A stretch of DNA of 64,000 nt from Mytilinidion resinicola. Taxonomy: Eukaryota > Ascomycota > Dothideomycetes > Mytilinidiales > Mytilinidiaceae. The notes under the pieces are model-generated. The model searched no databases. It was not told the origin of the DNA and saw only the letters and a list, made by a program, of their open reading frames with translations. Location of the stretch: NCBI RefSeq assembly GCF_010093595.1, contig NW_022985442.1, positions 1,110,185-1,174,184 of the forward strand, given 5' to 3'. This document shows, piece after piece, positions 1-59,338 of this stretch. Numbering within the stretch: the first letter of the stretch is position 1; each line of letters starts with the position of its first letter. The position numbers and the translations under genes were made by a program.

Positions 1-59
1 ACTTCCTCGGCTTCATCTAGCGTACAGTAGGACCGTGGCGGTGGTGGTTTGAGGGCCAT
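1..59 (-). CDS. 5' end of a gene running off the left edge
   Basis: On the minus strand an ATG at 59-57 opens a frame that stays open to the window edge, giving a proline-rich N-terminus (MALKPPPPRSY...) followed by an acidic stretch. Only 19 whole codons are visible, so the product cannot be recognised. The roughly 600 bases between this ATG and the end of the next gene would be its promoter. A chance open frame of this length is quite possible. Confidence 0.35.
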   Translation of the reverse strand, partial: MALKPPPPRSYCTLDEAEE

Positions 60-654
60 GGTGAGTGTATTGAGGAAGTTGAGGATCAGGATGTAATGCT
101 TTGTGGCCACGCCGCACTTGGAGAGAGCATTTGGAATTAGTGAGAAACGTAAGCGAGCGAATCGGAGGCCCCGGAGCACTCCTCCGGACCAATCAGAAGA
201 TCAGACGTAAGAAGGGTGTATACGGAGTAGAAAAGGGGTGTACACCGAGTAAATATAGGGTGTACATTTAGCAGCGCCCATACTTTATTCTTAGGTATAC
301 AGAACCCACAAAAGCCCGCCCAAAAACCCATCATCTCCCCTTCACATCCCCACAACAAAAAATCCGCAAAATCTCACCTATAAACGCCATCCTAACGCCC
401 ACATATGCGTTTGCAAAATCGCCGCTCAACGCTCAGAACGTCTTTCGCTCCCTTTCATGTGTCTCGAAGATCAAAGTACACTATAACCGCATTCCAATCC
501 AATCAATCCGGTAAGCAGGCAGCCGTCCAGCTCCTATCCCCAAAGTCGCCATCGCTCGAAGTGCCAAAAACGCCAAAGTTAAAGAAGTGAATCAAATAGG
601 CTGGCGCGAAGCGAAGAATCGTAGGTCTCATATTTATGCCGACGTAGGTAGGGG
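60..654. other. Intergenic region, probable promoter of the left-edge gene
   Basis: No gene is supported here. A 61-codon open frame at 405-590 (+) has no recognisable features and is taken as chance. The only structure seen is the 22-bp periodic repeat at 214-279. Confidence 0.5.
214..279. repeat. Three 22-bp units each starting GGGTGTA
   Basis: GGGTGTA occurs at 214, 236 and 258, an exact 22-bp spacing. The first two units continue with a shared (G/C)GAGTA ending (GGGTGTATACGGAGTA and GGGTGTACACCGAGTA), and the third is more diverged. This may be a short tandem duplication in a promoter or a cluster of binding sites. The same core occurs at 4315, and a GGTGTATA variant near 5768. Confidence 0.5.
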
Positions 655-18368: not shown

Positions 18369-20108
18369 ATGGCGCAGATGGCATACTACAGCCAGCACTT
18401 TGCGCAGACCTTTGCCCCCCCACCCATACCATATCCCGCCCCAGGAGAATTGCCCAGGTACGAGTTGAAATCGCCGTTACGCTCTGCCTCCCACGCTGCT
18501 GTCCCTACGACTAATCTCGGCATACGCAGCAATTCAACCTCGTTGTACGTCCGCCAGCAACCAAGAGTAGCGCTAGTCTCAACCACTGGCACCGAAAAGA
18601 GTCAGTCTGCTCTATCCTCCATGCCACCAGTTGGTGTCGATGCTCACAAGTGTTAGATCGCAAGCCGATCGACCCGCCTCCTTTTGTAGAGCTTCAAGTG
18701 GAGAGACGCGTAGACCCATCGCAACATTTTCTCAATAATCCCTACATTTTTTCGACTGTAACCCTCTACAAGGCGGACGTAGACCAAGACTACGACGACA
18801 CACCTGGCAAGTCGCTAGCAGGAACTTTCGTCTCGTCTGCCAACCGATTGAAAAATGAGGTCAACATCGGTAATGATACAAATATCCCTTACCAACAAGT
18901 CGTTTGCTAACTGGTTCAAAGATGGCTGTTACTTCGTGTTCGGAGATATTTCTGTTAAGGTTGTCGGCACTTACCGCTTGAAATTCTCCGTATATGAAAT
19001 GAGGAAGGATGGACAAGGAGTAGTAGTGTACCTTGGCGCGGTCATTTCAGACAAATTCCAAGTCCAGACACAGAAAGATTTCCAAGGATTGTCAGAATCG
19101 AATTATCTCACCAAATCTTTCCACGAGCAAGGCATGCATTTGAGGATTCGAAAGGAACCACGAACGACGCTAGGGTTTGTTCCCACCACTCTCCTCTACA
19201 GCAAACAAGACACTGACTTCGAAACAAGCAAGCGAGGATATGAGTACAAGCCGCCGAACGCGCCCCCCGCCACGCTTGCCGCCCGACCGTCTGTGGACGC
19301 TTACGCACCGGGAGGATATTCCAGCGGCTACTTTGACGATGGGTCATCGCCCTCCTCTATTAAACGCTTAAAGACTAGCAACTATGATAGCAGGGGGACT
19401 TACAACTCGAACATGTACCAGCAATATCCTGTCCAAAACGCCACCTTTCCGTCAACACCAGTACCGCACAGCAGTGCGGACTATCAGTTTGGGTCAATGA
19501 ATACAAACGGGCTTGGTGTATTCACCTTTTCCAGTGGGCCTCAGTTGCCCTCTTACAGATCCGACTCGCGCTTCTCTACCTTAGTAGAGCGTTCTATGAC
19601 GAGCGCTATTACTCCACAATACGGATACAGTCCAGAACAAGCTCATAATAGCCTCGGACAACAACGCAGCCCACATCAGCCCGTACAAGCCCCTAGTACT
19701 TACAGCGACGGCCACAGCTTCCCTGCATACCGTAGCTCTTCGAACAATGAGCATACCACCACGGATCATCGATCCAATATGTCGTTGAACGCCAGCACTT
19801 CAGAAGGGTTCCCGTCACAGCCTCTCCCCTACCGTAACCCGCCCGCCACGATCGGGAACGGAGGCGCCACGCATGGGAATAGGGATCATCAAGGTATCTC
19901 AACTTCGGGCAGTTTGCAGATGGGTGGGTTGTCGGCGAACGGTATGACCTACTCCGCTCCATCCAGGACAGGACATGTTGGGAATGGAAATTATCGAAAC
20001 ACCGCCTCTTCAGATAACCTATTGCCGTTAGAGGATCCACTTCAGGAACAACCGTCGCAATCGGGAGACCAGTTCTTGACGGTCAACTTTCCTAGTCTAG
20101 GGCGCTAG
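18369..20108 (+). CDS. Velvet-domain developmental regulator, VosA type (three exons)
   Basis: Velvet proteins are fungal DNA-binding regulators that couple sporulation, spore viability and secondary metabolism, acting as homo- or heterodimers in the nucleus. Exons are 18369-18600, 18657-18869 and 18922-20108, giving 543 residues. Introns are 56 and 52 bp, the second with a GCTAAC branch site. The velvet domain spans about residues 58-231: YVRQQPRVALV, KNRKPIDPPPF, the core YFVFGDISVKVVGTYRLKF and the closing LRIRKEPR. VosA is favoured over VelB because there is no long insertion inside the domain and the FVFGDxSVK and RIRKEPR strings fit VosA as I remember it; VelC is the main alternative. 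The C-terminal 300 residues are Ser/Gln/Asn-rich and disordered, with a basic KRLK patch. The start chosen is the first ATG with a good context; an in-frame upstream frame lacks protein-like content. Confidence 0.87.
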
Positions 20109-26641: not shown

Positions 26642-28781
26642 CTAGCCAATGATCATCTCCATTTCGACGGGATCGGGTCCTTGGATAACTTTTAGGTCTT
26701 GTGTTTCCGCAGAATCTCTCATAGTGACGTAAAAGAGACAGGAGTAGGAATAGCAGGGTATGGTCCCATCTACAGCATGGCCAGCGTCCCAAAGAACCCC
26801 TACAGCCTTCAGGGAGTCCGCTGTACCTCTTGGAGCTCTCTTGAGCACGATGGTGTCAAAAGAGCAAGCCTTAAATCCCCAACGAAGGATGTACAACCGC
26901 ATGCTCGGTGTCTGAACGGTAAATCTGAACATTTCCTCCGGAAGCTGATAGCTTTCTCCAAACTCCAAGAGCCTAATCGCGAGATAATGTGCGTGAATGC
27001 CTCTGTCGCTTATCGATGCGTCCGGCTGGCTATGTCCATCAAAGCCATCAGATACACGGGACCATAAACGAACGTGGAGCAAATCTGAATCCTGGATATG
27101 CAAGCTTGTCACCTCTGTTGAAAAGTATGCTGTGGTGGACCCTGCTAATCATGAGCCATATGCTCTTTATGGTCTCATCATCCTGTAGGGAGGTATCTAG
27201 ATAGTCTTGTGTGACATAATTCATGTCTAAACCTGCGATTGTTGCGATTACGAGTGCTTCGTCTCTCCGGACACTGCTTGATCGATCCTGGAGCATCATC
27301 AGCTTGAACGTGAAATTCGTTGAATCGGTACATCCGAGACGACGTAGCTCCCATAACAAGGTCTCAACTAGGTTTGATTGATCTTTCAGTGACTCACTCA
27401 GATCTTGCACTTTAATAGTGCGAACTTTGAAGGCAGCGTAGAGCTGTTTAACTAGAATAGCTTCTTGAAATGTCCAAAGGCGCCGGTTCCAGTCACAAGT
27501 CAAAAATCTTATGGCAAGCGCGTGCCAGGTTGAGGTTTCGGTCGACAAAGACAGCAGATCCTGGTCGATCGAGACTACAGCTGCAGCATTACGGTAGATG
27601 CTCTCCATCATCGATATTGACTTCATCTTCAGCCCCTCGTCTCGAGGAATGCAAAGTGAATCCAACCAAATCCAATCATGACTGGCCAGGCAATTTATTG
27701 ATAAATGATTGCAGTCTACATCTTGCCAATCCATCATCGGCACCACTTCCTGCTCCGTGAGACCAGACGTGAGAGACTGCGACATATTGGAGACTCCTTG
27801 AGTAGAGTCGCACGGCGTCGCTTGGGTTGCTTCGTGTGTCAATGAGAGTAGGAATGTGTAGGACAAAGTAATTGTCAGTATCTAGAGCGTTTCGAATACT
27901 TGGGATCGAAATTTTTATCCAGTCGCATTTGCAATCGTCCTTCATATGGCGAGCTTGGAATGTCGAAGTTGACAAACTATTCGTACTGCAAGCGCCAGGA
28001 GTGCAGTGGTCGTGTCGATTTTCTTGCACGCTACTGTCATCCTGCAGAACGCAAGCATATTCAAGCTCACTGATCCCCCATGTTCTGAGCCTTGTGTATA
28101 GTGAGGGGCAAATACTGCTTGCTTTCAGTCGACTCAGGTAGAAGTCGTCGTCGACAACTAACTGACCCATTTGATCAAGCTGCCTGTCGATGCCCATGGC
28201 CTCGAAAGTTCTATTTAGCGTGCTAAGAATGTCTTCAATTAGAAATGCTTGGCGACAAAGAACTCTAATAGTAGAATCGCGGGATTTAGCGTCTCTGAAA
28301 CCGGCCTTCAGAAGCACACACCATTGGCATAGAGTTCGATACTCTCTGCGCAGTGTGCATGCCATTCCAGCGAAGATGATGTTATCGGCTGTGTTTCCGA
28401 GTCGGTATACCTCTGCAAAATAGTCCTCGATGATGGGTCTTAGAGCAGTGAAGGACAGGCCCTTCCGGGGCTTCAAAGACGTAGTCGTTGAATGTAAGTG
28501 ATGTATAAAAAACGCCCTCTAATAGCCCAAAGAAAAGCATGCTCTGAAGTCTGGCCAACGCCGCTCCGTCAGACAAGGCCTCCCTGTTGGGGACTTGAAG
28601 CTGAGTACGTTCTTATGCACTCCAGCCTTGGGATTCGGCGTATGCGTCAGCGCCAGGGTATGGGTCGGCACTGCTCGCTCTAGGTTCTTCGGGGCTTCGA
28701 TGCTGGTATCCAAGCCATGGACAAGGAATGATGTTGGCGCCGTACAGTTCAAGCCCACGCTCGTCCAGCAGGTGCTGCATG
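26642..28781 (-). pseudogene. Broken heterokaryon-incompatibility (HET) domain gene
   Basis: HET-domain proteins trigger incompatibility and cell death after fusion of unlike hyphae. The HET core is visible: YVAVSHVWSHGAG in one frame, then WIWLDSLCIPRDEG and RRLWTFQEAIL in the next. The reading frame changes three times within conserved stretches: near 28475 (between FNDYV and LKPRKGLSF), near 27678 (between KLPGQS and WIWLDSLC) and near 27060 (between RFAPRSFM and SRVSDGF). Each change is a +1 step, equal to one inserted base, and no intron of usable length fits at any of them. A TAG at 26644-26642 ends the last frame, although the same frame stays open again to 26399. The N-terminal limit (a possible ATG at 28781) is unsure. 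A decayed gene is the simplest reading; sequencing indels are the alternative. Confidence 0.75.
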
Positions 28782-39415: not shown

Positions 39416-40176
39416 ATGGCACCAAAGAAAGTCGCTGGCGAGGGCTCCAAGAAAGCAGCTGGTCAGGCCCGCAAGGCAGAGGCCGCCCAAGCAAAGCAAG
39501 CTGCAAAGGACAACCAGAAGGCCGCCGAAGAGGACAAGGAGTGGAGCAAGGGCTCAAAGTCAAACTCGAAGGCGTAAGTGCCACCAGCTGACAAGCCACG
39601 AAGCCCGCCTCGAGCTGTGCTTTGATACAGCTTCTGCATTAATCATAGCACTTGCTGACATTATTGCCCCTCTACAGTGAAGCAGCTGCAGCTAAAGCCG
39701 CCGAAGCCGCCCGGAAGAAGGCGGAGAAGGATGCCCTGCTGAAAGAGGAGGAAGCCTCTCTACCAAAAGCCAAAACCGGCAATGCCAAAACCGCGCAGAA
39801 GAAGTCAAAAGGCATCGACTCTGCACTGGGTTCTTTCGACAAACCCTCATCACTCAACGCGACTGGTATCGAAAACGCTTTGGATGCGCTTGACATAGCG
39901 GCCGACGCCAACGACAAGGTGGACAGGCATCCAGAGAGGCGGTTCAAGGCGGCCTATACGGTGTTTGAGGAGAGGAGAATGGAGGAGATGAAGGACGAGA
40001 AGGGCCTGCGACGAAACCAGAAGATTGATCAGATTAGGAAGGAGTTTGAGAAACACCCTGATAATCCGTTCAATCAAGTGGCTGGCAAGTTCAACTCGAC
40101 AAGAGAAGAGCTGGCGGAGATTAGGGAGCAGGAGAAGGGCAAAAAGGAGTCGAGGCTTGCGAGCCCGACTGGATGA
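39416..40176 (+). CDS. CCDC124/Lso2-like ribosome-associated protein (two exons)
   Basis: CCDC124 in animals and Lso2 in yeast bind empty 80S ribosomes and help them restart after dormancy. Exons are 39416-39573 and 39678-40176, with a 104-bp intron (GTAAGT to CTACAG), giving 218 residues. The N-terminus is a Lys/Ala/Glu-rich single helix (APKKVAGEGSKKAAGQARKA). After a linker with GIENALDALD comes the conserved C-terminal block: HPERRFKAAYTVFEERRMEE, then GLRRNQKIDQIRKEFEKHPD-NPFNQV. That block is diagnostic of the CCDC124 family. The length is normal. A cytosolic ribosome-bound location is inferred from the family. Confidence 0.92.
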
Positions 40177-40924
40177 GAAGCTGTATGAATATGCATAGCT
40201 ATATGATGAGTAATGAGGTCCCGAATACTTGACGAAGTGCTCGTTGAGTGGGGAGAACAGTGGTTCATTGTTTATGGCCTATTGCGTTAGGAATCGAATA
40301 GTCGCTATTGGTGCTCTTGTCAGTATTAGATGGCTTCTGAACATTCAAGATCGAGAAACAAGTAAAATCCTTTGGGTCCAGTGAGAATTCAATAGAGAAT
40401 GTCTTTATCGTAAAGCGAACGGATGTAATACTTTGAGATGTGAAGAGAGTGACTCGGTGGCATGATTCCAATAGCTAGATCTAGTTCTGAGCCCTCTGCG
40501 TGATAACGATATTGTTTTTCGGTTCCTGAACATATGTGGGACGCGGAACTAGCTATACGCGGTAGACTATCTGTAGAAAAGAGAATCACGCTAATACGAT
40601 TGCGGCAAGAGAAGAAGCGCCGGAGGTCTGACGACATTCCAATCTCAAAGGAAACCGAGGTTGTTCGCGAGCTTCGTCTTTCTTGACATTCTTATTATAC
40701 GGAATCCTAACTATAAGTACTAGTCTCTGCAAAGGGTGTCCGCGTGTTTCCAGTCTTCACCGCAAGAGCTAAATCTGTCACGTCAAAGACAGATATCCAA
40801 TACCTATATTCCTTTTCTATCAAAGTCTACGACTCGTGTCTATCATATCGCCACTCTTTTCATTTCTTGCTACATCTCGAGTTCCTTGTTTCTTTCTCAT
40901 TCCGAAACTCCTCTCGAGCACGTC
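40177..40924. other. Intergenic region between CCDC124-like and DJ-1-like genes
   Basis: About 750 A/T-richer bases with no supported gene. A pyrimidine-rich stretch at 40840-40920 sits just upstream of the ATG at 40925 and looks like a leader. Confidence 0.5.
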
Positions 40925-41871
40925 ATGGCATCAACCACTCCCAAGGTCATCTTCTTAATGGCTGATTACGGCCACGACCCAACCGGTAGCACCCATCACT
41001 TCTGCTTAATTCATATTCAAGAACTAACCCATCACAGAGACCGGCCGCCGGGGAGGAATACGAGGTTGTAGGGGAATAGGGTAAAGCCGGAGGTGTTCCA
41101 GGAGATCGGAGAAGTATACTCCGGGGCGGAAGACATCTCTTTATAGAGGTTCAGCGTTGCTTGGTTGGCTCCCTAGTGACGTAAGATTTTAGATGAAAGT
41201 TCGTGTGCGCTTTGAGGGGGCGACTGGGGTAGACTGACGAGGAGCTTTTGCGTCCATCCTTGGAGCATCTTCTTATCGCACTCGAGCGCTTTGCCTGCTT
41301 CGGTTGCGAAGGCGATGATGAAGCCGGCGGCCTTGAATGCTGCGTACGGGACGGCATGAATAAGGGGTCCGCCAAGTGATAGACTCGCCCATCATCCAAA
41401 CTCAGCTTGCGGCTTACTTCCCGCAAACTTTCAAGTCCTCGAAGTCCGCGAAGGCGGTGGCGGCCATCTGCCACGGCGTGCTCGGGTTGTCTGAAGCGAA
41501 GGGACCAGACGGGAAAAGCGTGTTGTATGATGTTACGACTACGGCGTTGCCGGGGAAGATGGAGCAGGGGATCTTTTGGGCGACTAGGGCGGTGTTGGGA
41601 GATTATTACAAGACGTATGAGGCTGGGAGCGAGAGCGTAGAAGCGGCAGTGAGAGGAAGGATGCGAGAGCCAGAGAGTCAGTATAAGAGTAGTCTTACAG
41701 GGAGTCCGTAAGTTATGCGTGGCTTCTTTGAAGGTAATGAGTGCTAACGTTAGTGATTTTAGATTTGTTGTTGCGGATGAGAAGTATAATTATTTGAGCG
41801 GAAGATTCCCGCCGGATGCACAACTGCTAACTGAGAAAGCAATTAAATTGGTCAGAGATATCGTGAAATGA
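40925..41871 (+). pseudogene. DJ-1/PfpI (ThiJ) family gene broken by an internal inversion
   Basis: The family includes glyoxalase III-like enzymes and glutamine-amidotransferase-like proteins with a nucleophilic Cys. Exon 1 (40925-40985) gives TPKVIFLMADYGHDP and splices (52-bp intron) to GAG ACC at 41038-41042. The frame then turns to nonsense and stops at 41082-41084. The right part reads on the plus strand from about 41364 (GVRQVIDSPIIQ) through AAICHGVLGLSEAKG, with the expected Cys, to 41707. It then splices (55 bp) to 41763-41871, FVVADEKYNYLSGRFPPDAQ, ending in TGA. The missing middle of the protein is found complete on the opposite strand in 41043-41355. An in-frame TAA (41361-41363) would remain even if the segment were turned back. 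As it stands the gene cannot make a full protein. Confidence 0.85.
41043..41355 (-). other. Inverted internal segment of the DJ-1/PfpI gene
   Basis: Read on the minus strand this 313-bp segment encodes the central part of the family: AVPYAAFKAAGFIIAFATEA, then GKALECDKKMLQGWTQKLL, a 66-bp intron (41238-41173, GTCAGT to CACTAG), then GANQATLNLYKEM, SPISWNTSGFTLF and NLVFLPGG. Turning it around joins ET to AVPY on the left and PGG to an HE codon pair on the right, both in the expected order. The outermost bases are complementary (G at 41043, C at 41355), so the ends are ambiguous by one base. GGC/GCC microhomology sits at both junctions. The inversion carries exon sequence and its own splice sites. 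Confidence 0.85.
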
Positions 41872-41967
41872 TGAATGTTCTGGTTTCCTTGATGATCATA
41901 ATAATATCTCTCTCGTCCTACTGTACATATCTTATCTTGTATTCCACAATATCCCTAGCATCAAATC

Positions 41968-43184
41968 CTATCCCTTCTTTTCAGTCCCGACCTTCTTAGC
42001 TGAGCTTGGATTGACGCCCGCCATAGCGTTATCAACGCCGCTCCACCGTCGCACTAGATACTGCAATCCGGCTGGTAATACGCCTAGAACATCAATCCAT
42101 CTCGCGTAAAGCGGTACCGCAATAGTGCCGCCACGACCTCCATCGACCAGACGAATGATCTCCTTGGCTATATCTACCGGTGCAAGGACGGGGGCTAGAA
42201 ATGCCGATGGTGTCTTCACGTTCGCGAACATTGGTGTAGAGAACTGCCCTGGTTTGCAAAGGATTGTGCGGATGTATTGGCCTCTAGGATCTCTAGCTAG
42301 CTCGGCCTCCAGGGAGGCGTGCATGGCGAGAAGAGCAGCTTTCGAGGCTGTATAGTCTGAGAGATTTGCGGCGCCGAGATGACCGAGCACGCTGGAGACC
42401 GTGACTACGGTGCCTCGTTCTTCTTCGAGCATGCCCGGGAGGAACGCCCTAAGGGTATGGAAGTGTGAGAGTGTGTTGATTCGGAAGGTTCTGGAGTATG
42501 TCAGCATTATTCACGCTTCAGTAGGAAGAGTCGTGGGCACTTTTCTATCTCCTCAGATGAAAGCTCGAGTAGCGATTTGCCATGGACAATGCCAGCATTG
42601 TTGATTAGAATCGTAGGGACACCAAGCTGTGCGAGGTCAAAGTCAGCAGTGCTCATTCCAAAGTGACGTATGAGATCGCATACATCTTCAACGATTCGCT
42701 TCCCCGCCGCCTCCACCTGCTTCGGGTCTCCTACATCACACTCATAATATGCAATGCCCTTCTCCTCAGCCTCATCTTCCGAGAACTTCTTCACATCCAA
42801 CACAGCAATATTCGCATTCCGCATCCCATACACCTCGGCGATCAACGCGCCCAGCCCACTTGCCCCGCCCGTTATCACAATCACCTCCTCGCTGAGATCC
42901 ACCTCGCGCGGCGGGCCGTACGCGATGCGGTCGTTGATCAGGCCCAAGATACCGTAGACCGTAAGCAAGGACGCCCATGCAACAGTAACATACATGGACG
43001 GGTGGTCGTACGGCGTTGCCTGGGCGCGAAGGCAGAGGGGTATCATCCACGCGACGAACGGGTGCAGAACCGTGTAGCTGAGGACGTTTACGATGAGGTC
43101 GAGGGTCAGGTAATGGTGCCATGGCTTCTCGACGCCTGATACGATTGCGCCTTCGGGCATCTTCGCGGGTATCGTTTGAACCAT
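41968..43184 (-). CDS. Short-chain dehydrogenase/reductase with N-terminal membrane segment (two exons)
   Basis: This is an NAD(P)-dependent oxidoreductase resembling the RDH10/SDR16C group, which acts on retinoid- or lipid-like alcohols. Exons are 43184-42541 and 42490-41968 with a 50-bp intron, giving 388 residues. The ATG at 43184 is used because the open frame above it begins with GTG. Residues 20-80 are hydrophobic with two likely membrane segments (VLSYTVLHPFVAWMIPLCL and YVTVAWASLLTVYGILGL). The cofactor loop is VITGGASGLG, followed by LINNAG and the catalytic YTASK. The splice restores EIEKTFRINTLSHFHTLRAF, as expected for the family. The donor (GTGCCC) is unusual, but no other in-phase choice was seen. 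The substrate is unknown. Confidence 0.9.
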
Positions 43185-43462
43185 TGTGGTTGTTGGGGGG
43201 TATATTGCGGCGCTTAGATGGCGGGTTGTTCTAGACACTAGATTACGATATGGATTAATTTGAAGCAGAAGAAGAAGCTATCCTGGATCCCGTGGAGTAC
43301 AATGGAGAACTGTTAAAGGGTGACAAGACGATACAGAAGACATGGTGTTCTCTTTGCCGCCGCCTTCTTCACGCGCTGCGTTTCAAGGGGACCATTCGGC
43401 GATCGAAAGACTTTCACCGCTCCAAGGGATTGGCTTACATACTCATACGGCATACTTAACTA

Positions 43463-53702: not shown

Positions 53703-56605
53703 TTTTGGCCAGTGTCGAGCTATTGCGAGTCAGGAAGATGCTTGTGCGGTAAGGAAGCAGACAAAACCAGCAGCGGATCCCTTGTTTTGACGGAGTCTTC
53801 CAGCAGCTGAAACCGACGGTCGATTCTTATAGTTCGGTCAAGGACTCTCCACAGTGAACGGCACAGCAGATAGGCCGCTAGCCATTTGACTAGGGGTGCG
53901 GTCGTCCCACCTTACCGGAACTCTGGGACCCCTCAATCGCACGTTGGGCATGATGAGTGGTCAGTTATGCTGCAAGATGGCCTGCGGACTGGGGAGAGTG
54001 AGCCTGCCAGCACAGCCTTCGCCCCATGCATGAGCTCTGACGACAGTTCCCAAACCCGGACGAGCTAGGAGGGGATGGACGCAGCCAGTCCCCATCAAGA
54101 ACTGGCACTCTTTTCGGTTTTCGCCGATCCGTCGGGTGATCTGATGACAGTTTGCACTGGCTGCATACCGGTGCATCTCTATGCAATGGCGGGAGCGCTT
54201 GCGGACTATCTCATTCGTCAAGGAGGCGTTCAACAGTCCAATGGCGGAGGTTCGCTGGTCGTTGGGGAGTGGAACAACGAGCAAGGGCTTGTTCAGCTCC
54301 TGGCAATGGACAACAAGGCTTATCTCATCGCGGCGACGGTATTCGAATTCGGCACTAGCATCCGATCGGTTCACTGGGCGGAGTCTTCCGGACCAGCGAT
54401 CTCTGCGGATTTCCTGAGGGCGCTGTTGGATCGGCGCATTGTCTGGCGCCAACAGTAGACACGACGAGCGAGCATGGACACGACGGCGCTGGACGGCACC
54501 CCAAACGAACAAGACGTGCGGCACCTGTCCCAAGGCAGCAGCAGAAGCTCCCTCAGGCCATTCTTGCATTTGTGATTTGTCTAAGGCGCCCTGTTGTCTT
54601 GGTGTGCTCAAGTCAGGGGTCGACGATGGCCCGGGCTCGGAAGCATATGGGTGCCATCACTTCACGCTGAGTGGCTGGAGAAGCGCAACGACACCACATG
54701 GCGGGCTTGGGGAGACGTGTGGGGCAGTCTGCATTCCAGTTCCTCGCCTGGACGGCTGGCGGGAGCAATTGGGGCTCGAGGGAGCCGTTTTTGGCGGTAC
54801 ATGGGCCACGATTGGGCTCGCCGTGGCTAGCTGTTGAGCAGGCCAATTGGGGAGGAGAGGGGATCGACGATGGCAGTGATTCGATGTAGCACGATTTGCA
54901 TGCAAGCGGCGGCCCTGACGCAGGCCGACACGGCGCCACGATGCTGAATTCTGGCGTCCTGCGACAACATCATCCATACTCCTCGACACGCCGGCTCAGC
55001 GCCACGCTCAGACGTCGTGCCGGCGCTGTGGCAGAGCCATTCTGACAGTGCACGGAGCGTCCCCGGGCTCGGAGAGCTTCTGGAAGATGCATCGAAGGGC
55101 CTGGCAGCGCCACAGACGGGCCTCCTGCGCTCTGGGCACGCCGCTGTGATCGGCGGCTCTCAAACCGGCTTGTGCTCAGGACCGGCACCCCCAGCGCGGG
55201 ACCTGCCATGTCCCGTACCGCGCGCCCGAACTCCCAACGGTGAGCGGCTACCCGACGGTCGCTTGTGCCAGTCCAGGCAGCGCTGACGCTCAACTGACGC
55301 CGAACTGGCGCTCCACGCCGCTGCTCAACTCTCGCTCCCGTCGCCGCGCCGCGATGCCGGCTATCTGCCCGCTCCTTGCTGCCAGGGCCCATCCTGGCGC
55401 ATCTCGCTCCGGCGATCTGGGCCGGAGATCCACGTCCGGGGGATCTCACCACGACGCCAGGACGCACTGCTGAGCGGAGCGCGCCAATGCCCGTCGAGCA
55501 GCGTCTGTTACCACCCGTCCCTTGGCCGACAGCCGCCACCAGCAGGCAGGCCCGGCGGTTGGGCGTTGCGAGAATGTCGGCTAGCCTCCCGACGAGCAGA
55601 ATCCCGGGTTGCAGCCCAGCCTGCGTGCGCCATGATGGCACTTCGGGGGCGGCCGCTGCTCGTCACTGAGCCCTTCGGCCCCTATGATGCGTTTGCAATG
55701 GCAGGGCCTGGCAGCCCGGGCCTGGCAGCCCGGTTCTGCCAGCGGGCGGGCCAGCCGCAGGGCTCGCACCCCAGGGGGCCGTGAATCGTCCCGCTCGCGC
55801 TGCCAAACAGGCCCAAACGGGACATCGAGTCTCCATGGACACATCGAGATCGCTCCGAGCTGTCAGATCAGACGAGATCCACCGGATTGCATTCCAGAGC
55901 GGCTGAGGCGCTCTTCCACGTGGCCCGCAGGGTCCCGCTCGGGCGCGAGGAGCACTCGTTTCTGCTCTCCAGGCCACCGGCGCAGAGCGCACCGTCGGCG
56001 TTGGCGTGGAGCGTGCGGTGCGACAGGCGCTGTCCAGAAATCCCTCTGTACGTCGTGGCCCTAGACGTTGCCCGTGTGGACCAACGCCTCCTCTGCTCCC
56101 CTTCTCCCTGCCCGGCAGTGGCTGCAGCACTCGCTCGACACGGCAATAAAAAGCGACACCAAAGACAAAACCTGGAGCCGTACTCGACTCGGGATTTAAG
56201 CTTTCTTTTTGCTCGAGACATGGGCGTTGCGTTGGGGGGCGTCCACTGTGAGGCCCGAGCACAGACAACTCCGCCCCAGGCTGCTGTACCACCATCGTCA
56301 GCTGCTGCCGCGACCCTCCCACGTCTCTTCTCCCGCGAGCGGGCTGGCGGCGCGATTTGGAATGCCATGCCATGTTGGTGCCAGTGCGACCTGGCACGGG
56401 GTTCTAGAGGCCGCCTCCTGTGCCAGACGCCGTTGCTCTGCTCCTGCTCTCCACATGCCTTGGCATCGATCGGTGAAGCAACGTGCTCTTCTCCCCGTCA
56501 CAGCGACAGGCAGTGGCGACGATGCGGAGGGCAGCTCGAGCATTGGGCATATGCTTGGTGGTTGTTTCTTTCAATTTTCAGCCCTTGTAGCCTGCTCTGG
56601 TCTGG
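53703..56605. other. 2.9-kb GC-rich stretch upstream of the disordered protein gene
   Basis: Mostly GC-rich sequence with long overlapping frames on both strands, resembling the 13-18 kb stretch. Frames such as 55663-56397 (-) and 55887-56609 (+) overlap each other and lack protein-like patterns. The only frame worth noting is 54075-54458 (+), listed separately. It probably contains a long promoter or leader for the gene at 56606. Confidence 0.4.
54075..54458 (+). CDS. Doubtful open frame, unknown product
   Basis: A 127-codon ATG frame has a balanced composition and plausible hydrophobic segments (VHLYAMAGALADYLIRQGG, EQGLVQLLAMDNKAYLIAAT). A longer antisense frame (53961-54611) covers it, and no family is recognised. 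It could be a real small gene or GC-driven chance. Confidence 0.25.
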   Translation: MDAASPHQELALFSVFADPSGDLMTVCTGCIPVHLYAMAGALADYLIRQGGVQQSNGGGSLVVGEWNNEQGLVQLLAMDNKAYLIAATVFEFGTSIRSVHWAESSGPAISADFLRALLDRRIVWRQQ

Positions 56606-59338
56606 ATGATCGGACAGACCGACGCTCGATCCTCATCACTCGTCTTCGATTGGCAATCGGCCATGGCTGCCCCCAAACCAGACACCAAGACTCCCCTTTG
56701 CCAGGAGAAGAGTCACCATGGCCTGCTACTGGCTCCCTCCCCAGAGCCATCTGACGAGCGGGCTCCCCGTGGCCCTATTGACGGCGCTTCAGGCATTTCG
56801 TCAGTCCTGCCCGCCCTCCACTCTGCAAACTCTCCTACTGGTCCAGATCCCCTTTCTGGCTTGTTGACTGCCACGTGCGTCAACGAAATCGGCTCACCGA
56901 TCCAGCCTGGGGAGCCAGAGCGCGTCATTAGCCAGGACGTCGGGGACGATGCGTACGCCCAAAACAAAAAGGAGTCCTGCAAGGATCCCAAACCACGTCC
57001 CGTGCCGTGCAATCTGGCACTTCGATTTGCCAACCGGCCAAACGGCACACAGCTCACAACTATAATCGAGCAGAGATCTTACTCGACGCTAAGCTCGCTG
57101 CCGTCTCTTATCAGCACCCCTCGTCGCTATACGTCTGGCCAGTTGAGCGCCAGCCATTCATCCAGCACTCTATCACCTAATACGAGATGTCAAGAAGGTG
57201 CCAGCCGGCGAGAGGTGTCGAGGAGTCTGGACGAGGTGGCTTTGCACAAGGTCTTCGAGGCTGCCAAACAGAGATTACAAGAGGCTACGAGCGTCAAAAC
57301 TCATAGCACACCGAAATACGCTCCTGAACAGCCCGTAGTCGATACGCCCAAAGATGTCCCAGTTGCTACTCAACTTGACACGACCCCTAAAGACTCCAGC
57401 AAACCTCCACCCTCTCCTGTCACTCAACCTCAACCTCCTCCCCCGGACCATGAACGGGAGGGCAGACCAGTGAGGCAAGTTCTTCGGACCCTTTTCGACA
57501 CGGTGCGTAAAGCACCTCGACACACGCTTTCTCTCTCTGCCTTGAGAACTCGCCCAAATCAGGACACATCGATTCACGACACGTCGATCTTTCGATCAGC
57601 GAGATACAAGGGACTTTCAGAGCCGTCAACAAAAGGTGACTCGAGCGGCCACACACACAGGAGGAAACGCGCGGTACACGAACCCAACGTTACTGGGTCT
57701 GTCCATGTTGGTTACAACTTATTGTCGGGGCGATCTGCGAGTCCTACCCGGAAGGAGAGGGGAGGCCGCGATTCCAAGGCGACCTCTCACCAGCCAGAGA
57801 ACGCGCCCGGCAGCGAATCACCAGCAATATTCCTGAGAGGACACCATATTCAAGAAGACCAAGCAATTACGCCGAGCTGCACAACGCCGGTATTGTTGAG
57901 ACCTGGCGAAATCTCAGCTTCGCCTACGCCCTCGCCGTCGCAGTTCTACACACCACCGACCGCGCCCATCATCTCATCGAAGCGCTTCTCGATCCCAAAC
58001 AATGCACCGACGATCGTTCCCCCTATCACTCCTCTTCCGCTCTCAGTCAGAGGTAGAGATGGCGAAGATGCGCGATATTCGTTTGATGGAGTCCTTCTCT
58101 ACCGTCCGAACGCCCCTTCACTCCACAAATACGACCGTAGCCGCACCACCAGTGGCAGCTCCTTGTCAGTCTCTAGTTCTATTCTAGGGATAGACGGAGA
58201 GTCCAACTTAGAAGCTACCATAGCACGGAAGGCAAAGGCTACCTTAGTCCCTTACCACGCCCATAGCCGCCTCCCTACGTACGCGACGACAAACACCAGC
58301 TCGAACCCCAGCACTCCCCTTCCCTCCAACGACGGCAGCGACAACACCCACGCAACAACTACCGGTACCGACTTCAGCCTCAGCGTCAACGCCGCCCTCC
58401 CAAGCGTCTTCCACGCCCCTAAACCCGCCGCCTGGTTCGCCTCCAAATCCCCCCTCCTCACCCCCCACCCGCCGCCCACCCACATCAAATCCCACACCCT
58501 CACCTCCGCCGCCCTCCCCGTCCTCCTCCCCTTCGCCGCCGCAAACGGCATCGTTACCACCTCCACCACCTACAAACAAACCCCCAGCACCTCAACCACC
58601 TGCGTCACCTCCTTCCACTCCCCCTCGGGCAACCTCATCCGCGTCACAGAATCAGACTCTGAGCCCGACGTCCCCCGCTCCTCACACCGCCACTCGCGCA
58701 TCGCGAGCCCGTCCGCTATCGACTCTTTCCAGCACCCCCTCGAACCCCTCGCCCGCCCTGTCACGCTCCCTGCGACTGCGTCGCCGCCGTCCACGTACCC
58801 GTTACCCAGCTGGCTCAGGAAGCCAGCTGCACGACAGGGAGGTAGTGAAAGAGGTGGAGGCGGCGTGACGTATCGCCCGCTGAGCAGCGAGAGCGTCCCG
58901 CGCGTGCATATCCCGATTCGCACGCACGTCCACCCGCCGCGTGCCCTCCTTATACAGCCGTCGGTCGAGCCCAACACCGGCCCTACCCTGAACCACAGAG
59001 CGGGGCTGCCGAAGGGCCGCCTCGTCGCGCACCGCGATGTGCATGGCTGTGGGGGAGAGGTGAGGGCGGTGAGTTTGCAGCCGAGGAGTGGGGTGAAGAA
59101 TAAGGCGGTGGGGATGGGGATGGGGATGCAGGCGAGGGGGTGTAGGGCCAGGGGCGTGGGGAGGGTGATGCAGAGGGTTAGGTTTGTGGCGGTGGATGGG
59201 ACGGTGGATGATGATAATGAGGATGATGAGAGGAGGGATAAGGGGGGTGGTTGTGGGGTTTGTGGGGGGGAGAGTGTTGGGTGGGCGTTGAGGGTTTGTT
59301 TCTGTCAGCCGAGGGATGATGGAAGGGGGGGTGAGTGA
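56606..59338 (+). CDS. Large disordered Ser/Thr/Pro-rich protein with C-terminal Cys cluster
   Basis: A single frame of 910 codons starts at ATG 56606; a second ATG at 56663 (MAAPKPDTK) is an equally good start. Almost the whole protein is low-complexity Ser, Thr, Pro and Arg, with candidate phosphorylation motifs (RSASPT, SPSPSQF). Recognisable points are a helical patch EVALHKVFEAAKQRLQEA, basic patches (THRRKRA), a YSFDGVLLYRPNAPSLHKYD segment, and a C-terminal CGVCGG...CFC cysteine group after an acidic run. I recognise no family. The late exon is extremely GC- then G-rich. The even codon pattern over 2.7 kb and the absence of stops despite moderate GC in the first half support a real gene, perhaps a signalling or regulatory scaffold. 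Confidence 0.65.
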   Translation: MIGQTDARSSSLVFDWQSAMAAPKPDTKTPLCQEKSHHGLLLAPSPEPSDERAPRGPIDGASGISSVLPALHSANSPTGPDPLSGLLTATCVNEIGSPIQPGEPERVISQDVGDDAYAQNKKESCKDPKPRPVPCNLALRFANRPNGTQLTTIIEQRSYSTLSSLPSLISTPRRYTSGQLSASHSSSTLSPNTRCQEGASRREVSRSLDEVALHKVFEAAKQRLQEATSVKTHSTPKYAPEQPVVDTPKDVPVATQLDTTPKDSSKPPPSPVTQPQPPPPDHEREGRPVRQVLRTLFDTVRKAPRHTLSLSALRTRPNQDTSIHDTSIFRSARYKGLSEPSTKGDSSGHTHRRKRAVHEPNVTGSVHVGYNLLSGRSASPTRKERGGRDSKATSHQPENAPGSESPAIFLRGHHIQEDQAITPSCTTPVLLRPGEISASPTPSPSQFYTPPTAPIISSKRFSIPNNAPTIVPPITPLPLSVRGRDGEDARYSFDGVLLYRPNAPSLHKYDRSRTTSGSSLSVSSSILGIDGESNLEATIARKAKATLVPYHAHSRLPTYATTNTSSNPSTPLPSNDGSDNTHATTTGTDFSLSVNAALPSVFHAPKPAAWFASKSPLLTPHPPPTHIKSHTLTSAALPVLLPFAAANGIVTTSTTYKQTPSTSTTCVTSFHSPSGNLIRVTESDSEPDVPRSSHRHSRIASPSAIDSFQHPLEPLARPVTLPATASPPSTYPLPSWLRKPAARQGGSERGGGGVTYRPLSSESVPRVHIPIRTHVHPPRALLIQPSVEPNTGPTLNHRAGLPKGRLVAHRDVHGCGGEVRAVSLQPRSGVKNKAVGMGMGMQARGCRARGVGRVMQRVRFVAVDGTVDDDNEDDERRDKGGGCGVCGGESVGWALRVCFCQPRDDGRGGE

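Follow-up and report, generated by a model that had tools for sequence, protein, structure and literature searches.

Apparent loss of a ThiJ/PfpI-like gene of Mytilinidion resinicola through a recent microinversion

A ThiJ/PfpI-like gene (Pfam PF17124) of the dothideomycete Mytilinidion resinicola (order Mytilinidiales) appears to have been turned into a pseudogene by a recent microinversion, probably generated by a break and rejoin of the end-joining type, a reading to which we assign a probability of about 0.84. This single gene occupies positions 40925-41871 of the window, i.e. the whole stretch of 64,000 nucleotides that was analysed, which is part of contig NW_022985442.1 in an assembly of 47.1 Mb and 44 contigs. 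The arrangement is judged to be real in the organism, and the gene probably gives no working protein. The locus would thereby represent an unusually clean and well-resolved case of an ordinary route to gene death.

Organization of the locus and its match to the family

On the plus strand, exon 1 (40925-40985; MASTTPKVIFLMADYGHDPT plus one base), as delimited from the sequence and its translation, is followed by intron 1 (40986-41037; GTAGCA...CACAG, from sequence) and by the remaining start of exon 2 (41038-41042), which completes a Glu codon, codes for Thr and ends at the left breakpoint. The plus strand departs from the family order at 41042/41043 and resumes it at 41356, where the C-terminal exon (41356-41707) starts within a His codon, reads from GVRQVID to SLTGS and carries the Cys of the AICHG motif. 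The plus-strand part is completed by the last intron (41708-41762; GTAAG...TTTTAG, from sequence) and the last exon (41763-41871; FVVADEKYNYLSGRF...VRDIVK, then a stop).

The intervening segment (41043-41355), assigned by Pfam and alignment, reads on the minus strand and codes for residues 12-93 of P0002, the nearest relative. It was shown to comprise the rest of exon 2 (41239-41355; AVPYAAF...WTQKLL), an intron of 66 nt with GT...AG borders (41173-41238; GTCAGT...CACTAG, from sequence) and a further exon piece (41043-41172; GANQATL...FLPGG and the first base of a His codon), all on the minus strand. The two minus-strand ORFs that contain these exon pieces match PF17124 (ThiJ_like) at profile positions 12-52 (E 8.3e-8, 32.7 bits) and 51-94 (E 8.4e-12, 45.7 bits), respectively, and the plus-strand C-terminal exon matches at 98-183 (E 2.9e-14, 53.7 bits), all three scores lying above the curated cut-off of 30. 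The Pfam scan covered these three pieces, and exon 1 (profile 1-11) was placed by alignment to P0002 instead, where exon 1, together with the two residues contributed by what remains of exon 2, is identical to residues 1-11 at 11 of 11 positions. The earlier note, in which the middle exons of a DJ-1/PfpI gene were described as flipped within the gene, is confirmed in this respect by complementary PF17124 ranges on opposite strands, as is its assignment of the first and C-terminal exons to the plus strand and of the middle, with its own intron, to the minus strand of 41043-41355 (Pfam and tiling of P0002).

The pieces tile the 246 residues of P0002 as 1-11 (plus), 12-50 and 51-93 (minus) and 97-246 (plus), with no repeated residue and no column conflicts; only the split His codon, a Glu and the stop-bearing codon fall outside the tiling, and these are located in the right flank. 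This fit was obtained in the alignment to DJ-1/PfpI proteins of related fungi that had been proposed as a check. This alignment comprised 113 relatives of 235-290 residues, P0002 included, from among 120 listed matches of 526; P0001 (see below) was excluded, as were six shorter proteins. At the protein level, all 113 relatives read through the segment in the normal order, and at the M. resinicola locus a single-copy reversed segment lies between flanks in that order; judged from the proteins compared, the normal orientation would be the ancestral one.

Both edges of the segment are in frame with the family, and turning it restores the family order at each of them, as had been claimed. At the right edge the split codon, which corresponds to P0002 residue 94 (His in 113/113 relatives), is given as CAT by its two sides. 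The segment starts with G and ends with C, in keeping with the earlier observation that its ends are complementary by one base, and because of this complementarity each edge can be placed only to within one base. The previously proposed length of 313 bp therefore stands as one of two options, the other being 311 bp.

Compared with the fungal PF17124 proteins P0002 and P0003 (Glonium stellatum), the conserved blocks are also present at the M. resinicola locus, whereas their order along the DNA is disrupted and the gene contains a stop codon. No continuous frame results from splicing: translation of the spliced plus strand ends after 35 residues, and in the C-terminal frame no ATG occurs upstream of 41559. 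The fragments that encode the conserved Glu of DPTE (exons 1-2) and the Cys of AICHG (C-terminal exon), both of them putative active-site residues from work on the DJ-1 family, are no longer read together.

Other ways of reading a product from the locus were considered and rejected. Trans-splicing of plus- and minus-strand transcripts was dismissed by reasoning, since there are no splice sites at the left edge, which falls within an exon, and the coding flank contains a stop. For the long minus-strand ORF at 41154-41789, Pfam gave no family up to an E value of 1e-4. A search of the public proteins for a minus-strand gene model or a protein of the middle part alone gave a single match (one of one candidate), a 132-residue partial protein of Lachnellula cervina; no protein from the minus strand of the locus was seen among public proteins. 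A search for relatives of the C-terminal piece among solved structures returned none.

Copy number, second lesion and age of the break

A whole-genome search with PF17124 returned the two adjacent halves of the locus, i.e. profile 12-94 on the minus strand and 90-183 on the plus strand (2/2 candidates matched), and no match elsewhere in the M. resinicola genome as assembled. Likewise, no second, normally ordered copy was found in the 47.1-Mb assembly by searches that scored the best candidates only. The wider family PF01965 is represented by five genome matches (5/7 candidates), none of which is located on the contig carrying the gene. With PF17124 matched only at this locus, and hence no intact copy found elsewhere in the genome, the gene has the character of a unitary pseudogene, and the one ThiJ_like protein of this strain has probably been lost.

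In the surrounding window, the next gene downstream (41968-43277, minus strand) is a short-chain dehydrogenase in two adjoining open frames and looks ordinary. An ORF at 18852-20105 encodes the C-terminal portion of a domain of the Velvet factor family (PF11754), whose members regulate fungal development and secondary metabolism. A heterokaryon-incompatibility HET domain (PF06985) is encoded by an ORF at 27051-27881 on the minus strand, which is overlapped by an ORF at 27679-28518; up to an E value of 1e-4, Pfam returned nothing for either the latter or a 915-residue open frame at 56591-59335 (stop to stop).

The inversion is accompanied by a second lesion. A TAA codon (41361-41363, plus strand) lies in the frame of the gene and starts six bases past the last base of the inverted segment; in 111/113 relatives this position is occupied by Lys. 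The earlier claim that the gene was broken by inversion is supported, with the correction that the plus-strand part carries this further damage, a stop that had been missed. Since the stop is located outside the flipped piece, restoring the orientation of the segment would not reopen the frame. The stop may be part of the inversion event or a separate lesion.

The same codon bears on the public record of the locus, a 150-residue fragment (P0001) entered as 'uncharacterized protein BDZ99DRAFT_558387, partial' of M. resinicola. This model begins at GVRQ, directly behind the stop, and the C-terminal exons from GVRQ onward are identical to it over 150 residues, which would show how a gene of this kind comes to be recorded publicly as an odd 'partial' fragment.

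The locus could conceivably still be expressed, with the flipped exons now serving as an intron and exon 1 being spliced to the C-terminal exon. Three frame-keeping AGs, with second bases at 41364, 41376 and 41382, lie at the stop or shortly after it, and splicing at these would skip the stop and yield a shortened protein of 164-170 residues. However, AG is common, 10 frame-keeping AGs being listed between 41200 and 41560, and 87-93 residues would be gone from the conserved domain of the product, among them a Gly-Gly-His kept in 113/113 relatives, which makes this a very unlikely outcome. If true, the inversion would have made coding sequence into an intron of 379 nt or slightly more.

To place the break in time, P0002, a JGI-source protein from a contig of 1,676 bases that dates the break only loosely, was used for comparison. 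The inverted part is identical to P0002 at 61/82 positions (74%) and the C-terminal part at 127/150 (85%). Against P0003, the M. resinicola gene and P0002 each scored 54/82 in the inverted part and 114/150 in the C-terminal part. When ten outgroups were used, 3-6 replacements in the inverted part and 3-7 in the C-terminal part were unique to the M. resinicola gene, the corresponding values for P0002 being 2-6 and 3-7; neither part displayed an excess of amino-acid change relative to P0002.

At columns conserved in at least 90% of sequences, the M. resinicola gene departs at 1/24 (inverted part) and 2/50 (C-terminal part), and P0002 at 1/24 and 1/50 (medians 0 and 1). At the 80% threshold, departures amount to 1/34 and 5/61, with P0002 departing at 1 and 3 columns, respectively (medians 1 and 3). 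The C-terminal value of 5/61 exceeds the median of 3 and is equalled or exceeded in 24/113 relatives, leaving slightly relaxed constraint in this part possible. Accelerated decay was rejected as a clock, as it gave no signal against P0002. Given the lack of excess change in either part and of any clear sign of long decay, the break looks young relative to the split from the species of P0002.

Breakpoints and origin of the flip

The edges of the segment were searched for repeats. Within 20 bp on either side of each edge, the longest inverted repeat across the edges in the DNA as it stands is 4 bp, a length reached by 980/1000 random site pairs from approximately 38-44 kb and by 1942/2000 from the whole 64-kb window. 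In the family order it is 6 bp (a CCGCCG pair), a length reached by 494/2000 random site pairs from the whole window; both are within chance. Of nine inverted-repeat pairs listed for 40600-42000, none connects one edge with the other. In one such pair, of 15 nt and 80% identity, one arm (41027-41041) ends beside the left edge, with its partner located upstream (40723-40737). The sole tandem repeat in 40000-42500 consists of 2.3 copies of 9 bp, and a scan out to 500 bp from each edge showed no 1-4-base unit repeated over 8 or more bases. The joins overlap by one base pair at most.

With none at the edges, inverted or tandem repeats were rejected as drivers of the flip, and the edges would seem to offer nothing apparent for a recombinase or for homologous recombination, as judged from repeat searches. 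These observations also bear on whether the flip is a feature of the genome or of its assembly. Assemblers flip pieces mainly at inverted repeats, and no inverted repeat beyond chance is present here to mislead one into reversing a short piece of a normally oriented genome. The inverted exons retain their coding quality without excess change, as an assembly artefact would predict, although a young break would look alike. Furthermore, the in-frame stop outside the piece damages the gene in either orientation, unless it is also an error, and thus makes a pure artefact less likely; overall, this explanation is regarded as improbable.

The earlier note had also suggested that the inversion could be a reversible or strain-variable state. 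A reversible or programmed switch, with both orientations in a population, would agree with the clean edges and the intact inverted coding part. A site-specific switch would be marked by inverted repeats or recombinase sites at both edges, and the 4-bp and 6-bp pairs described above do not rise beyond chance. Together with the flanking stop, which persists in both orientations, this argues against a switch and leaves the proposal scarcely credible; the inversion looks permanent.

Under the favoured reading of a recent microinversion, double-strand breaks at both edges of 41043-41355 would have released the fragment, which would then have been rejoined in reverse, as in non-homologous end joining, with no net change visible in the coding bases. 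The pseudogene reading also accommodates a different mechanism, polymerase template switching during replication, in which the flip would arise otherwise than by break and rejoin. A segment of 313 bp in which no coding base is lost would be long for an event of this kind; each join overlaps by at most one base pair, and the CCGCCG pair of the family order is within chance. Template switching is nevertheless a described source of small rearrangements in the excerpted text of PMC7954356, and here it is considered an unlikely origin. Within the pseudogene reading, we infer that end joining rather than template switching made the flip, at odds of approximately six to one.

Comparison with known inversions

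Searches of the literature, by title or by the start of the abstract, returned no precedent for an intragenic inversion or microinversion in a fungal gene among the papers listed, though such reports may exist elsewhere. Other cases would come to light in a scan of fungal genomes for one protein family whose complementary halves are matched on opposite strands.

Among animals, 143 microinversions have been described between Drosophila melanogaster and D. pseudoobscura, all shorter than 5 kb and 77.6% shorter than 1 kb, with 142/143 being single copy (PMC1779558, as excerpted). The M. resinicola inversion resembles these as a short single-copy segment turned in place. It differs in that its segment is mostly coding and breaks its gene, whereas none of the 143 Drosophila microinversions in the excerpted report overlaps an exon of its host gene, though for seven there is overlap with an exon belonging to a nested or overlapping gene. 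In the comparison of human with chimpanzee, 2,377 ultramicro inversions of 5-125 bp were listed, 65 of them in exons (excerpt of PMC3227671). These are likewise short and in place, while the M. resinicola inversion, at 311-313 bp, lies outside that size range and traps an intron.

Within the Dothideomycetes, the fungal class to which M. resinicola belongs, intra-chromosomal inversion is described as the chief mode of rearrangement underlying mesosynteny, with an enrichment of simple repeats at distances of up to 500 bp from the breakpoints (PMC3516569, in its excerpted text). Mesosynteny inversions reorder genes along chromosomes, whereas the flip presented here lies inside one gene and its edges are devoid of simple repeats. 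According to the same excerpts, old breakpoints in this class are too changed for close study (PMC3516569); in contrast, the break in the ThiJ/PfpI-like gene is young enough for both edges to be placed to one base, and it would provide an example, in the Dothideomycetes, of a repeat-free inversion a few hundred bases long.
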